From: a virus
Reading direction: 5' to 3' (one strand)
DNA: 43,133 bases
Virus record (IMG/VR): IMGVR_UViG_3300029787_000103
Location: 1 to 43,133 of that record
Part shown: piece after piece, positions 6,087 through 40,120 of the stretch
Numbering within the stretch: the first letter of the stretch is position 1
Layout: each line of letters begins with the position of its first letter
The notes under the pieces: generated by a model
Told to the model about the DNA's origin: nothing
The model's input: only the letters and a program-made list of their open reading frames with translations
Databases searched by the model: none
Program-made: the position numbers and the translations under genes

Positions 6087-8384
6087 ATGGCTCTAGTAAT
6101 TAATGACCGTGTAAAAGAAACTACCACGACCACAGGCACTGGTACGGTTACATTAGGTGGTGCCGTTTCTGGATTTGAAACATTTTCAGCAGGTATTGGT
6201 AATAGTAATACTACATACTATTGTATTGTTTTAAATGCTGAGTTTGAAGTTGGTTTAGGTACTTTATCTTCAGATAGTTCAACCCTTGCTCGTACTACAG
6301 TTATATCAAGTTCAAACAGCGATAGTGCTGTTAACTTCTCAGCAGGTACTAAATTTGTTTTTTGTTGTTTACCCGCTAGTAAGACAACAATATTAGACGC
6401 TAGTAATAACCTTACACTGCCTGGTAAATTAATTATGCCTGATGTTACTTCAGGTAAAATATTAGTCGCAGATGGCACTAGTTATGAAGAAGTTGCATTA
6501 AGTGGTGACGCAACAATAGCCTCAAGTGGAGCCCTTACTATTGCTAATGACGCTGTAGAACAAGCGATGATAGCAGATGATGCCGTTGGTGCTGATCAAT
6601 TAGCAGCTAGTGCTGTGGTAACAGCCTCAATCGTAGATGACAATGTAACTCAAGCTAAAATTGCTGATGATGCGGTAGGTGCTGATCAATTAGCCGCTAA
6701 CGCTGTGGTCAATGCAAGTGTGGCTTCAGACGCAGCGATTGTTGACACTAAATTAGCTACTATATCAACAGCAAACAAAGTAGACATAGGAGCACTAGAT
6801 ATAGATGGTGCATCAGACATTGGTGCTGCTTTAGCAGATGCTGATTTAATTATTGTTGATGATGGTGCTGGTGGCACAGAAAAGAAATGTGAAGTGTCTA
6901 GGGTTAAAACTTATATAGCTGATGTAACATTAACAACTGCGGCACAAACAAATATTACATCATTAGGAACACTTACAACATTAACTGTTGATAACATAAT
7001 TATTAATGGCACAAACATCGGACATACTAGTGACACTGATTCAATAGCGATAGCTTCAAACGGAGTGGTAACTTTTAGTCAAAGAGATGTACACTCAGGT
7101 GGTATTACTATAGCAGATGGCGGACAAATAGGTTCTGCTTCAGATACAGATGCTATAGCAATAGGATCTGATGGAGATGTGACATTAACACAAGATTTAG
7201 AATTACAACACGATGGTGCGATTCTATCGTTTGGTGCTAATGATGAAATAGCTCTAACACATGTGCATGACACTGGTTTATTGTTAACAGATTCTGGTGG
7301 CACACCTACTTTACAATTCCATGATGCAAACGAATCTTTTGCCTCTGATGGTAGTAAGATAATCATGACTTCTGGTGGTACTGCATTTAATATGCCGACA
7401 GCTGATGGCAGCGATGGGCATTTTTTAAAAACAGATGGTAGTGGAACGCTAACATTTGCAGCAGCTAGTGTTAGTTCATTGGCAGCAGATGACCTTACAG
7501 CAGGTGACGCAGCAGTCACTATATCAACATCGTCTGGAAACATTACAATTGATGCTGCTGCAAACGATTCAGACATTATTTTCAAAGGAACTGATGGTGG
7601 TGCTGATACTACATTTTTAACAATTGACGGTTCTGCTGCTGGAGCAGCAACCTTTAACGATAAGATTATTGCAACAGAATTAGATATTTCTGGTGATATA
7701 GATGTTGATGGTACTACCAATTTAGATGTGGTTGATATTGATGGTGCGGTTGATATGGCATCAACTCTCGGAGTTGCTGGAGTTGTAACTGCTAACGCTG
7801 GTGTAGTCGTAGATAATATAACTATTGATGGCACAGAGATTGACTTAAGTTCAGGTGATTTAACACTTGATGTTGCAGGGGATATTATCTTAGATGCTGA
7901 TGGTGGTGATGTTTTATTTAAAGATGCTGGCACATTAATTGGAAAAATAGCTAACAACGATAGCTCAAACTTTAGAATGGATGTTTCTGTGCAAGACAAA
8001 GATTTTATATTGGGTGGAAATGATGGGGGAACTATTATTTCAGCTATGGTGCTAGATATGAGTGCTGCTGGAGCTGCTACATTTAACAATGATGTTACTG
8101 CATTCTCTGATGAAAGATTAAAAAAAGATATAGAAACAATTCCGAATGCTTTAGATAAAGTATGTCAAATGCGTGGTGTTACATTTGAAAGAATAGATGA
8201 CGAAGGTCATAAAAGTATGGGTGTTATAGCTCAAGAAGTTGAAAAAATAATACCAGAAGTTGTAAGAGAGGATAAGTCAGAAGATAAGATTAAATCAGTT
8301 GCTTACGGCAATATGGTCGGACTTCTTATTGAAGCGATAAAAGATTTGAAGAATGAAGTTGATGAACTAAAGAATAGGAGCTAG
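6087..8384 (+). CDS. Tail fibre with C-terminal S74 intramolecular chaperone
   Basis: 765 residues. The N-terminal ~120 residues look like a virion-attachment domain, followed by a long Ala/Asp/Ile-rich repetitive shaft with two copies of ADDAVGADQLAA (residues ~166 and ~196). The C-terminal ~95 residues are the endosialidase-type S74 chaperone: AFSDERLKKDI at 673, GVIAQEV and SVAYGNMVGLLIEAIKDL. In this family the domain trimerises the fibre and is released by self-cleavage before the conserved Ser-Asp (S674-D675 here). The coiled end LKNEVDELKNRS follows. Likely host receptor binding. Confidence 0.9.
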   Translation: MALVINDRVKETTTTTGTGTVTLGGAVSGFETFSAGIGNSNTTYYCIVLNAEFEVGLGTLSSDSSTLARTTVISSSNSDSAVNFSAGTKFVFCCLPASKTTILDASNNLTLPGKLIMPDVTSGKILVADGTSYEEVALSGDATIASSGALTIANDAVEQAMIADDAVGADQLAASAVVTASIVDDNVTQAKIADDAVGADQLAANAVVNASVASDAAIVDTKLATISTANKVDIGALDIDGASDIGAALADADLIIVDDGAGGTEKKCEVSRVKTYIADVTLTTAAQTNITSLGTLTTLTVDNIIINGTNIGHTSDTDSIAIASNGVVTFSQRDVHSGGITIADGGQIGSASDTDAIAIGSDGDVTLTQDLELQHDGAILSFGANDEIALTHVHDTGLLLTDSGGTPTLQFHDANESFASDGSKIIMTSGGTAFNMPTADGSDGHFLKTDGSGTLTFAAASVSSLAADDLTAGDAAVTISTSSGNITIDAAANDSDIIFKGTDGGADTTFLTIDGSAAGAATFNDKIIATELDISGDIDVDGTTNLDVVDIDGAVDMASTLGVAGVVTANAGVVVDNITIDGTEIDLSSGDLTLDVAGDIILDADGGDVLFKDAGTLIGKIANNDSSNFRMDVSVQDKDFILGGNDGGTIISAMVLDMSAAGAATFNNDVTAFSDERLKKDIETIPNALDKVCQMRGVTFERIDDEGHKSMGVIAQEVEKIIPEVVREDKSEDKIKSVAYGNMVGLLIEAIKDLKNEVDELKNRS
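6573..6709 (+). repeat. Internal 90-bp period repeat in the fibre shaft
   Basis: Two ~47-base copies (6573-6619 and 6663-6709) differ mostly at third codon positions and encode the same 12-residue shaft motif 30 codons apart. The silent differences point to an old duplication kept by protein-level constraint. Confidence 0.6.
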
Positions 8385-37927: not shown

Positions 37928-38748
37928 AGACATTGCGAGTCTTGTCTCTTGGGGCAGGAGTGCAAAGCACGACGATTGCCTTGATGATTGAAAAAGGTGA
38001 ACTGCCCATGGTTGACGGAGCTGTGTTCTCGGATACCGGGGGAGAACCTAAAGATGTATATGATCACCTGGCTTGGCTAGAAAAACAACTATCCTATCCT
38101 GTCTACAAAGTGCAGTGGAGAAATTTAAAGGAAGATATTTTAGATGCTGCTGATGGGAAACTTAAAAAATTTACAGTGCCTTTTTATACCTTGGATAAAA
38201 AAACCAACAAGCGTGGTTCTTTATTGCGACAATGCACTAGGGATTATAAGGTAAGACCTGTAACCAATAGGGTTAGAGAGATGATGGGTTATCAAAGATA
38301 TCAGCATGTTGATAAGACTAAATGGAAAGTTGAAATGTTAATCGGTATTTCTAATGATGAAATGCAAAGGGTAAAAAAAAATATATTGAAGTACGCTGAA
38401 AATGTGTATCCATTAATTGAAAAAGACATGTCCAGGAATGATTGTCTTGCATGGATGAAGAAAAATAATTATCCAGAGCCACCAAGAAGTGCTTGTACTT
38501 TTTGTCCATATCATTCAAACAAAGAATGGCACAATTTAAAAAAAAATCAAAAAGAGTGGGATGAAGTAATTAAAATGGATCGTTTAATAAGAAATACAGA
38601 CGAAAACAAAAAGAGTCAAATAATTAATAATGAAATGTTTTTACATTATAGTTGTAAACCTTTAGATGAAATTAATTTTGATGAAAAATTAAGTGAACAG
38701 TTTGCTTTAGATTTTGCAGATGAATGTGAGGGAATGTGTGGCAATTAA
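37924..38748 (+). CDS. PAPS reductase-like PP-loop protein
   Basis: 274 residues from GTG 37924 overlapping the polymerase stop. The nucleotide loop is SLGAGVQSTT (8-17); FSDTGGEPKDVY, RQCTRDYKVRP (C104) and RSACTFCPYHS (C191, C194) follow, and the end is CEGMCGN. This adenine nucleotide alpha-hydrolase family includes PAPS reductases and sulfur-transfer enzymes such as DndC. Phage members often sit by DNA methyltransferases, as here, so nucleic-acid modification (sulfur or base) is a reasonable guess rather than sulfate reduction. Confidence 0.85.
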   Translation: MKTLRVLSLGAGVQSTTIALMIEKGELPMVDGAVFSDTGGEPKDVYDHLAWLEKQLSYPVYKVQWRNLKEDILDAADGKLKKFTVPFYTLDKKTNKRGSLLRQCTRDYKVRPVTNRVREMMGYQRYQHVDKTKWKVEMLIGISNDEMQRVKKNILKYAENVYPLIEKDMSRNDCLAWMKKNNYPEPPRSACTFCPYHSNKEWHNLKKNQKEWDEVIKMDRLIRNTDENKKSQIINNEMFLHYSCKPLDEINFDEKLSEQFALDFADECEGMCGN

Positions 38749-40120
38749 TCATTTAGACTTTTGTTCAGGTATTGGTGGTTGGGCTTTGGCTTTTCGTGAG
38801 CTAGGCATCAACACGGTTGCCTTTTGTGAGATAGAAAAATACCCACAAAAAGTCTTGCAGAAAAATTTCCCCGGTGTTCCAATATTTAATGACTTAAAGG
38901 AGTTGACTTATGAAGATATCAAAGAAAGAACAGGAGTTGATGGTATTGACATCCTCACTTGTTCCTACCCCTGCCAACCTTTTAGTGTCGCAGGGAAGCA
39001 AAAAGGCGAAGAAGATCCAAGACACCTCTGGCCAGACACTTTTAGACTTGTCCAAGAGTGCAGGCCCACTTGGTTTGTTGGAGAAAACGTTAGTGGACAC
39101 ATTAAACTCGGTCTCGACACCGTACTCGAGGACTTGGCGAGTGAAGGTTACGACACAAGGACATTTGTTATTCCAGCTTCATCCGTTGGTGCGTGGCACA
39201 AAAGGGAAAGACTCTGGATTATTGGCTACTCCGAACACAATGGATCACTTACCACCAAGAAGTCCAGAAAGCACCAAGAAACTGCAAGAGGGGCACCGCA
39301 AGGGCAGAACCAAACCGAGCAATCTGAGGGAGCAAGTAGACCCAGAAACCATGAGAATGTACCCAACACCAGTGGTAAGCGATCACCTACACAACGAGAG
39401 CGAGAGCATAGAGAACTGGAAAAAGAGAGCCAAGGAAAAGAAAAAACAAGGGGTGAATCTACAGTTCGCACTCCGTCATCATGTACAGATGTATCCGACA
39501 CCAACAACTCAGGAAATAGAACATCCAGACATGAAGCTGACCGAGAACAACCGCAGACTGACCAAGGATGGCAAGAACAGTCACAGCTTGAATTTGGCGG
39601 ACACAGTGAGAATGTATCCGACACCGAGAGCCTGCGATTTGGAAGGGGGAGTGGTGAAGAATGTAGAACTCCACAATGGCAGTTTCTCCAGGAAGAACAA
39701 GAAGGGCGTGAGGTATGGCGTGAAGCTGAAAGATGCGGTACATCACTTGATGAATCTACCGACGCCTCAAGCGTCGGATTGGAAGAACATGGACACAGCG
39801 AATCAAAAGATGTTGTCCAACACCGTGAAGAAACTATTTCCGACACCGAGTGCGAGAGATCACAAAGGTGGTTACCAAGGTGGCAGAATCAGGAACGGGA
39901 AAGTGAGTTGGGACACGCTGGATGTGGCAGTACAGCACACCTACAACAAGGAGAAAACTGGTGGAAAACTCAATCCGAACTTTGTGGAGTTCCTAATGGG
40001 ATTTCCGTTGAACTGGACAAAAATAGAGTCGGAAGAATCAAAGGATTAGGTAACGCTATAGTACCGCAAATCGCCTGGTTTATTGGTAATGCTATAATAA
40101 CCGCAGAAAAAAAGTCTTGA
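38738..40120 (+). CDS. C5-cytosine DNA methyltransferase, containing a nested gene
   Basis: 460 residues from GTG 38738 (AGGGA at 38729-38733); TTG 38714 or ATG 38720 are alternatives. Motif I FCSGIGG (8-14), IV SYPCQPFSVAG with catalytic C79, VI GENVSG (115-120), VIII HKRERLWIIGY (154-164), X IKGLGNAIVPQIAWFIGNAI (434-453). The target recognition region (~166-410) is hydrophilic, with VPNT/VSDT/ISDT repeats. The G/C content at third positions here is much higher than around it. A 379-codon frame is nested inside in +1. Target sequence unknown. Confidence 0.9.
   Translation: MAINHLDFCSGIGGWALAFRELGINTVAFCEIEKYPQKVLQKNFPGVPIFNDLKELTYEDIKERTGVDGIDILTCSYPCQPFSVAGKQKGEEDPRHLWPDTFRLVQECRPTWFVGENVSGHIKLGLDTVLEDLASEGYDTRTFVIPASSVGAWHKRERLWIIGYSEHNGSLTTKKSRKHQETARGAPQGQNQTEQSEGASRPRNHENVPNTSGKRSPTQREREHRELEKESQGKEKTRGESTVRTPSSCTDVSDTNNSGNRTSRHEADREQPQTDQGWQEQSQLEFGGHSENVSDTESLRFGRGSGEECRTPQWQFLQEEQEGREVWREAERCGTSLDESTDASSVGLEEHGHSESKDVVQHREETISDTECERSQRWLPRWQNQERESELGHAGCGSTAHLQQGENWWKTQSELCGVPNGISVELDKNRVGRIKGLGNAIVPQIAWFIGNAIITAEKKS
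38910..40049 (+). CDS. Overprinted gene nested in the methyltransferase: PTP-repeat protein
   Basis: 379 residues read in the +1 frame entirely inside the methyltransferase gene, from ATG 38910 with AAAGGAG at 38896-38902 (7-base spacing). Seven PTP-type motifs (18-21, 105-108, 151-154, 195-198, 236-239, 283-286, 310-313; for example MYPTP) and a closing GGKLNPNFVEFLMGFPLNW. Its composition (Lys, aromatic and hydrophobic residues in balance) is more protein-like than the methyltransferase frame in the same DNA. I recall proteins of this kind annotated as hypothetical in phages. It might be a specificity or partner subunit, inferred only from nesting. Confidence 0.7.
   Translation: MKISKKEQELMVLTSSLVPTPANLLVSQGSKKAKKIQDTSGQTLLDLSKSAGPLGLLEKTLVDTLNSVSTPYSRTWRVKVTTQGHLLFQLHPLVRGTKGKDSGLLATPNTMDHLPPRSPESTKKLQEGHRKGRTKPSNLREQVDPETMRMYPTPVVSDHLHNESESIENWKKRAKEKKKQGVNLQFALRHHVQMYPTPTTQEIEHPDMKLTENNRRLTKDGKNSHSLNLADTVRMYPTPRACDLEGGVVKNVELHNGSFSRKNKKGVRYGVKLKDAVHHLMNLPTPQASDWKNMDTANQKMLSNTVKKLFPTPSARDHKGGYQGGRIRNGKVSWDTLDVAVQHTYNKEKTGGKLNPNFVEFLMGFPLNWTKIESEESKD

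Follow-up and report, generated by a model that had tools for sequence, protein, structure and literature searches.

A probable two-subunit phage C5-cytosine methyltransferase with its modular specificity subunit overprinted on the catalytic subunit

Results

We analysed a methyltransferase locus in IMGVR_UViG_3300029787_000103, which record look-up places among the IMG/VR virus records; the whole stretch of 43,133 nucleotides (nt) is hereafter called the window. Two long reading frames occupy the same strand there. The outer one, alpha, encodes a C5-cytosine methyltransferase subunit of 460 amino acids and was taken to start at GTG, with a TTG at 38714 also allowed by the open frame. The inner one, beta, is an open reading frame (ORF) of 1,140 nt that starts at ATG, lies wholly within alpha in relative frame +1 and encodes a protein of 379 amino acids, the putative specificity subunit (Table 1). 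A first-pass annotation of this DNA had claimed such a nested frame, with all 1,140 bases dual-coding, and our results confirm it as a real gene. Also borne out were its report of an AAAGGAG at good spacing upstream of the inner ATG and its statement that MYPTP in beta and VSDT in alpha are identical bases read one apart.

Synonymous codon shuffling of the outer gene (5,000 shuffles) produced a mean of 8.4 inner stops and a minimum of 2, and recoding it with the phage's own codon usage a mean of 15.6 and a minimum of 7, against none observed. Since shuffled or recoded outer genes never reached zero inner stops, the inner ORF is not due to chance; an origin in chance or composition is likewise ruled out by the selection on the inner frame beyond the baseline, described below. 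The first-pass annotation had argued against chance from the fact that inner codons beginning AA, AG or GA never follow a T-ending codon. That regularity restates the openness of the outer frame and is no independent evidence, but the conclusion drawn from it held. The same codon restriction is probably the cause of a 206-codon antisense ORF (39226-39846, minus strand) inside the dual-coding region, where three frames are open.

The initiation signals of beta are conserved. A Shine-Dalgarno (SD) match of at least 4 nt preceded 83 of the 88 homologous inner starts, 80 of which were ATG, and an SD of 6 nt was found at 58% of these 88 starts versus 0.4% of internal +1 ATGs. The inner starts of the homologues were picked partly by their SD, but the background rate is far too low to yield 83 of 88 despite this guidance. 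Typical beta leaders (TTAAAGGAGTTGACTT, GAGGAGGATATAAAAA and GATATAAGGAGTTTTA) are group-specific, yet the SD signal is kept within the outer codons.

Alpha matched PF00145 at 1.8e-41 and phrog_363 at 1.3e-76, and carries the C5-methyltransferase motifs I, IV (PCQ), VI (ENV), VIII and X, the last with L437, G438, N439, V442 and P443 near-invariant in 55 sequences. The first-pass annotation had the outer frame keeping all catalytic motifs; this holds for I-VIII and X and fails for motif IX and a recognisable target recognition domain (TRD), which we looked for on the alpha chain, where they are absent, and located in the inner frame. The AlphaFold model of alpha is confident over residues 1-170 and in a C-terminal helix that starts near residue 440, with a low predicted local distance difference test (pLDDT) score in between, so that the linker between motifs VIII and X is predicted to be disordered. 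When this model was compared with M.HhaI by Foldseek, the large domain alone was matched (168 columns, 1.8 A).

Beta matched its own family, phrog_1008, at 5.6e-38, and had no match in Pfam or NCBIfam. Its C-terminal LNPNFVEFLMGFPLNW fits the motif IX pattern (compare LTPRECWRLQGFPDW in the single-chain relative L145). Two phage contigs, L044 and L047, encode motifs I-VIII, PTP cassettes, LNPDWVALLMGFPVGW and motif X in a single frame (L044 reads LMVFP) and have a +1 frame full of stops; the inner profile matched their proteins at 104-108 bits. Beta is homologous to the part of the single-chain L044 and L047 proteins that holds the TRD and motif IX. Since fused and split relatives carry the same parts, alpha and beta would together make up one canonical enzyme. 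The first-pass annotation had proposed a specificity subunit or a partner of the enzyme as the role of the inner protein; this is the best-supported role, and beta supplies exactly the parts that alpha lacks.

The centre of beta is an array of cassettes. Cutting beta proteins at each PTP-type motif gave 573 modules from 165 loci, with a median of 41 residues and 1-7 modules per protein, which fell into 59 families of at least two members plus 141 singletons; families are common to loci that arrange them in differing orders and numbers. Beta of the window carries six cassettes of ~41 residues in the order F0, F14, F1, F5, F10 and F15, followed by motif IX, and thus has several tandem modules between motifs VIII and IX, as in SPbeta-type enzymes. 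Seven PTP-type motifs had been counted in the first pass: six of them head cassettes (ATPNT, then five PTP), while the remaining one (VPTPAN, the first) falls in the N-terminal part, as does the first unit cut from this beta (F20). Cassette A shares 85-91% amino acid identity with loci whose alpha is only 46-52% identical, and the DNA of cassettes A and C is 69-77% identical in loci with an alpha identity of 47-57%. Near-identical copies of the GGYQGGRIRNGK stretch of cassette F occur in coliphage N15, Klebsiella LASTA and Salmonella SW3. Such sharing and exchange is, at the level of the modules compared, the behaviour of recognition domains, and the most likely role of beta is that of a modular specificity subunit with multiple targets.

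Table 1. Features of the nested methyltransferase locus in the window
Feature	Positions	Strand	Basis
Alpha (outer): C5-cytosine methyltransferase subunit, 460 amino acids, motifs I-VIII + X	38738..40120	+	PF00145, phrog_363, M.HhaI fit
Alpha catalytic large domain	38738..39247	+	pLDDT about 80-97 over residues 1-170; HhaI match; A5 invariant columns
Alpha motif IV, PCQ	38969-38977	+	within catalytic large domain
Alpha motif VI, ENV	39083-39091	+	within catalytic large domain
Alpha motif VIII, KRERLW	39200-39217	+	within catalytic large domain
Alpha linker, read-through of the beta cassettes	39248..39961	+	pLDDT block means about 33-54; outer dNN/dSN 1.13
Alpha motif X (GLGNAIVPQ); C-terminal helix up to 40117	40043..40069	+	helix pLDDT 89-94
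Shine-Dalgarno AAAGGAG of beta, within alpha codons	38896..38902	+	7 nt before ATG
Beta (inner, +1 frame): putative specificity subunit, 379 amino acids	38910..40049	+	phrog_1008, co-occurrence with alpha, dual-frame selection
Beta N-terminal part, dual-coding with alpha motifs IV-VIII (conserved TW...LLFQL...T...SGL)	38910..39218	+	inner selection; invariant W76 (alignment A3)
Cassette A (LLATPNTMDHLPPRS...NLREQVDP)	39219..39356	+	family F0, 47 loci
Cassette B (MYPTPVVSDHL...NLQFALRH)	39357..39488	+	family F14, 8 loci
Cassette C (MYPTPTTQEIEHP...SLNLADTV)	39489..39611	+	family F1, 25 loci, varying array positions
Cassette D (MYPTPRACDLEGG...GVKLKDAV)	39612..39752	+	family F5, 15 loci
Cassette E (NLPTPQASDWKNMDTANQKMLSNTV)	39753..39833	+	family F10, 10 loci including phage C72C1
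Cassette F (LFPTPSARDHKGGYQGGRIRNGKVSWDTLDVAV)	39834..39968	+	family F15, 8 loci
Beta putative motif IX (LNPNFVEFLMGFPLNWT)	39969..40019	+	in frame with I-VIII in L044/L047; invariant L354, P356, M363, G364

Selection on the two frames was measured in 325 pairs drawn from 68 nested loci of five groups; pairs share loci, and the intervals given are locus bootstraps. At outer codon positions 1/2/3 the pairs differed per site by 0.16/0.09/0.39 upstream of the overlap, 0.13/0.06/0.16 where it covers the catalytic part, 0.41/0.24/0.20 where it covers the cassettes and 0.21/0.15/0.51 downstream of it. Change at the outer wobble position is therefore frozen where beta starts and freed where beta ends, and the fastest-changing position in the cassette region is the inner wobble. 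Writing N for non-synonymous and S for synonymous, first in the outer and then in the inner frame, outer dNN/dSN in the catalytic overlap was 0.21 and inner dNN/dNS about 0.37-0.38 (0.32-0.45), the inner ratio for a mock +1 frame set outside the overlap being 0.74 (0.62-0.86). In the cassette region the outer ratio was 1.13 (95% 1.04-1.24) and the inner ratio 0.23 (0.19-0.28): there the outer frame is neutral and the inner one constrained. As in an overprinted gene, purifying selection acts on both frames in the catalytic part, and in the central part on the inner frame only. The NS rate within the overlap was unchanged, at 1.04 (0.80-1.42) of that outside, while the SN rate fell to 0.34 (0.26-0.42); the check for purifying selection in both frames proposed in the first pass thus finds the inner frame constrained beyond what the outer frame imposes.

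A tblastn search with the inner protein reached 115 phage records. Both overlapping coding sequences are annotated in Paenibacillus phages, and one only in most of the other records that we looked at. We saw the nested layout directly in marine, Bacteroides, Paenibacillus and Komagataeibacter phages, and also in coliphage N15 (gene 58), Klebsiella LASTA, Salmonella SW3, Erwinia pEp_SNUABM_08 and Lactobacillus Lc-Nu. Inner and outer matches stood together in 133 of the first 135 loci, almost always in relative frame +1. When 50 viral loci were fetched by the outer protein alone, 46 were nested (all in relative frame +1), two were fused in one frame and two were too short to judge. A larger set held 204 nested loci, 15 overlapping ones in which the inner frame reaches further, two separate ones and four fused entries, these being two contigs each fetched twice. 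Whole-genome matches were spread over many phyla, and the layout recurs in phages and prophages of Bacillota, Bacteroidota, Pseudomonadota, Actinomycetota and others. A standalone beta in phage phiKX1, apparent from the annotation, was discarded as a candidate, since it is overlapped by an outer frame that carries catalytic motifs.

As a control, we collected methyltransferases from two bacterial families (104 and 296 genomes) with the outer profile only. All 37 genes whose match reached the C-terminus contained a nested inner gene; 36 of them lacked any +1 stop over 150 codons and none encoded a canonical motif IX in the outer frame itself. Among the 19 matches confined to the catalytic half, which are ordinary methyltransferases, no inner gene was found, and the same 150 codons held 3-14 stops (median 9). 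Seven further genes fell between the two groups: they matched the outer profile in part and the inner one as well, some of them weakly. Homologues in which stops freely interrupt the inner frame would have spoken against the first-pass claim; the full-length homologues are instead nested throughout.

Some loci deserve separate mention. In L240, L241, L242 and L274, weak inner-profile matches (20-31 bits) fall in outer genes with an open or nearly open +1 frame, possibly further divergent betas that the profile catches poorly. The records of N15-like phage-plasmids in Enterobacteriaceae (L227-L229 and plasmid matches) list only alpha; the beta homologues left out of them are 57-84% identical to N15 beta, and the plasmid gene table is incomplete. 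One Roseovarius chromosome from a metagenome-assembled genome carries five copies of the nested methyltransferase with equal match scores (L164-L168), perhaps repeated prophages or an assembly effect.

Split genes that overlap, with motifs IX and X both on beta, were found in actinophages (L005, L143 and L146; Gordonia Upyo and mycobacteriophages MeeZee and Ovechkin), and L095 is also split with IX and X on beta. In a tree of the catalytic domain, L044 and L047 branch inside the clade of nested forms (support 0.93-0.97), and the split forms branch close to the base of that clade. With uncertain rooting, this suggests an order from canonical through split-overlapping to nested enzymes, with later re-fusion. 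The fused form was also considered as the ancestor and rejected: its place inside the nested clade makes it look secondary, weak rooting included. In L095 (1103-3885), an insertion encoding an HNH-like protein separates the alpha part with motifs I-VIII from beta and is followed by a second GAWHKRER copy of motif VIII; out-of-frame HNH insertions are known from phage ShiLan (PMC11855218).

Discussion

We consider it very probable that the locus encodes a two-subunit C5-cytosine methyltransferase in which a modular specificity subunit, beta, is overprinted on the catalytic subunit, alpha. Alpha would provide the catalytic domain (motifs I-VIII), a long unstructured linker and the motif X helix, and beta, expressed from its own SD and ATG inside alpha, the missing small domain, that is, the target-recognition cassettes (six here) and motif IX. 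The two would associate into one enzyme; C5 enzymes cut between motif VIII and the TRD do reassemble (PMC5944983, PMC3404938). Each cassette probably reads a different short DNA sequence. Methylation of several targets would then protect the phage DNA against several restriction enzymes, and a cassette swap would alter this protection.

Several points weigh against this interpretation. Motif IX of beta is assigned by pattern and position, and HhaI could be aligned with the fused-protein profile through motif VIII only. L044 and L047 are two related contigs from one metagenome. Modelled alone by AlphaFold, beta reached a pLDDT of 60 and a predicted template modelling score of 0.25, and Foldseek gave no match below E = 1, perhaps because beta needs alpha. 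The TRD fold of beta is therefore a putative one. One target per cassette is suggested by analogy.

M.EcoHK31I belongs to a host restriction-modification system, and its small gene reportedly lies inside the large one in another frame, a layout that the window and its homologues have. The first-pass annotation knew of no description of such an enzyme, but this one is a precedent: a C5 methyltransferase of two polypeptides, both needed, that acts on YGGCCR and has motifs I-VIII and X on the large subunit and motif IX on the small one (Lee, Kam and Shaw 1995, cited in PMC3404938). Alpha and beta of the window divide the motifs in the same way. The window enzyme differs in being phage-borne and in having its putative recognition region, an array of six cassettes, on the small subunit opposite a neutral alpha linker, where the TRD predicted for M.EcoHK31I was put on the large one (PMC3404938). 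M.AquI is also naturally split after motif VIII, and its subunits reassemble, its beta holding motifs IX and X and part of the TRD (PMC3404938). In the window, by contrast, motif X is on alpha, beta is nested and no small subunit with both IX and X exists; M.AquI is closer to the split forms L005, L143, L146 and L095.

The C5 methyltransferases of the Bacillus phages SPR, SPbeta, phi3T and H2 carry tandem TRDs, which give one enzyme several targets (PMC8936443). The tandem modules are a likeness, but those enzymes are one polypeptide read in one frame, whereas here the array, of up to 7 modules, is on a separate, overprinted subunit. The window enzyme would work like the EcoHK31I enzyme crossed with a multispecific one of the SPbeta type. 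Type I HsdS proteins likewise have exchangeable recognition modules on a subunit apart from the catalytic one. Their fold and chemistry (adenine methylation) are unrelated to those of beta, and hsdS is not nested in hsdM. In ShiLan, an HNH protein is read out of frame inside a phage methylase gene (PMC11855218). This second protein resembles beta in its placement, but it is a homing endonuclease in an insertion and no enzyme subunit.

Among the other explanations, beta could supply motif IX and scaffolding only, with target recognition in the alpha linker. This would agree with M.EcoHK31I, whose predicted TRD was assigned to the larger subunit (PMC3404938), and it counts against a beta that reads DNA. 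We nevertheless regard it as unlikely, since the alpha linker is neutral and predicted to be disordered and the cassettes are on beta, conserved and exchanged; the EcoHK31I placement, itself a prediction, may deserve revision. It is also unlikely that beta has no separate initiation and that ribosomes past motif VIII slip from the outer frame into the inner, so that a single chain results. The conserved SD and ATG at inner starts speak against it, and so does the inner-frame selection on the N-terminal part of beta, upstream of any plausible shift site. Such a shift would complete the enzyme in L005, L143 and L146, where IX and X are in the second frame, and L044 and L047 show that a single chain can exist; in the nested forms, however, it is again the outer frame that encodes motif X, and the shifted product would lack it. 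Accessory proteins are often encoded by overlapping genes, and beta might be a regulator or inhibitor outside the active complex; this is very doubtful, given that alpha lacks motif IX and the TRD, both of which beta and the fused relatives supply, and that all 37 full-length alpha genes contain beta. Finally, it is hardly credible that the inner ORF goes untranslated and merely reflects codon bias and repeats in the outer gene. The repeats of both frames are the same nucleotides and either could have caused the other, but codon shuffling never left the inner frame free of stops, SDs are conserved, selection preserves the inner frame beyond the baseline, conservation in the cassette region is that of the inner frame and not of the outer, and inner homologues occur either joined in one frame to motifs I-VIII or as genes that are largely separate.

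With an overprinted specificity subunit as the preferred explanation, the principle has a precedent, while its breadth, the neutrality of the outer linker and the shuffling of cassettes in an overprinted frame appear to be new; in the literature that we searched, nested C5 methyltransferase subunits are nowhere described as a general class. On balance we think it likely that these loci form a class of methyltransferases, very common and for the most part unannotated, whose catalytic subunit is overprinted with a complete array of TRD cassettes in shuffled combinations. Phages would shift specificity by swapping cassettes that have to remain open in two frames, at the cost of a neutral, disordered linker in the outer protein. 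If so, many single 'DNA cytosine methyltransferase' annotations (of the phrog_363 type) are half of a two-gene enzyme, and many annotated phage cytosine methyltransferases probably lack their specificity-setting subunit in the annotation. Long same-strand overlaps of two conserved proteins are seldom recognised in prokaryotes and are penalised by gene callers. A nested beta would explain the apparent absence of a recognition domain in such enzymes, and failures on expressing the annotated gene alone may be explained by the beta left out. The loci also offer a natural set of cassettes for matching modules to target sites and a clean system for the evolution of overlapping genes, in which one of the two frames is neutral across hundreds of bases.

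Additional observations

A large in-frame insertion interrupts alpha of L054 (2968-4815) between GGFPC and HNCQPFS in motif IV; it looks intein-like, and the nested beta is intact downstream. In the marine phage KM23C739 (L001, 2243-2400) the alpha frame changes within KKIF/KNFPNVP near an A-run, which splits the annotated gene and is either a sequencing error or a real shift. In the window, a gene for a protein resembling 3'-phosphoadenosine-5'-phosphosulfate (PAPS) reductase adjoins the alpha gene, and a 336-codon ORF (7079-8089, minus strand) lies antisense to the tail-fibre gene at 6087-8384.

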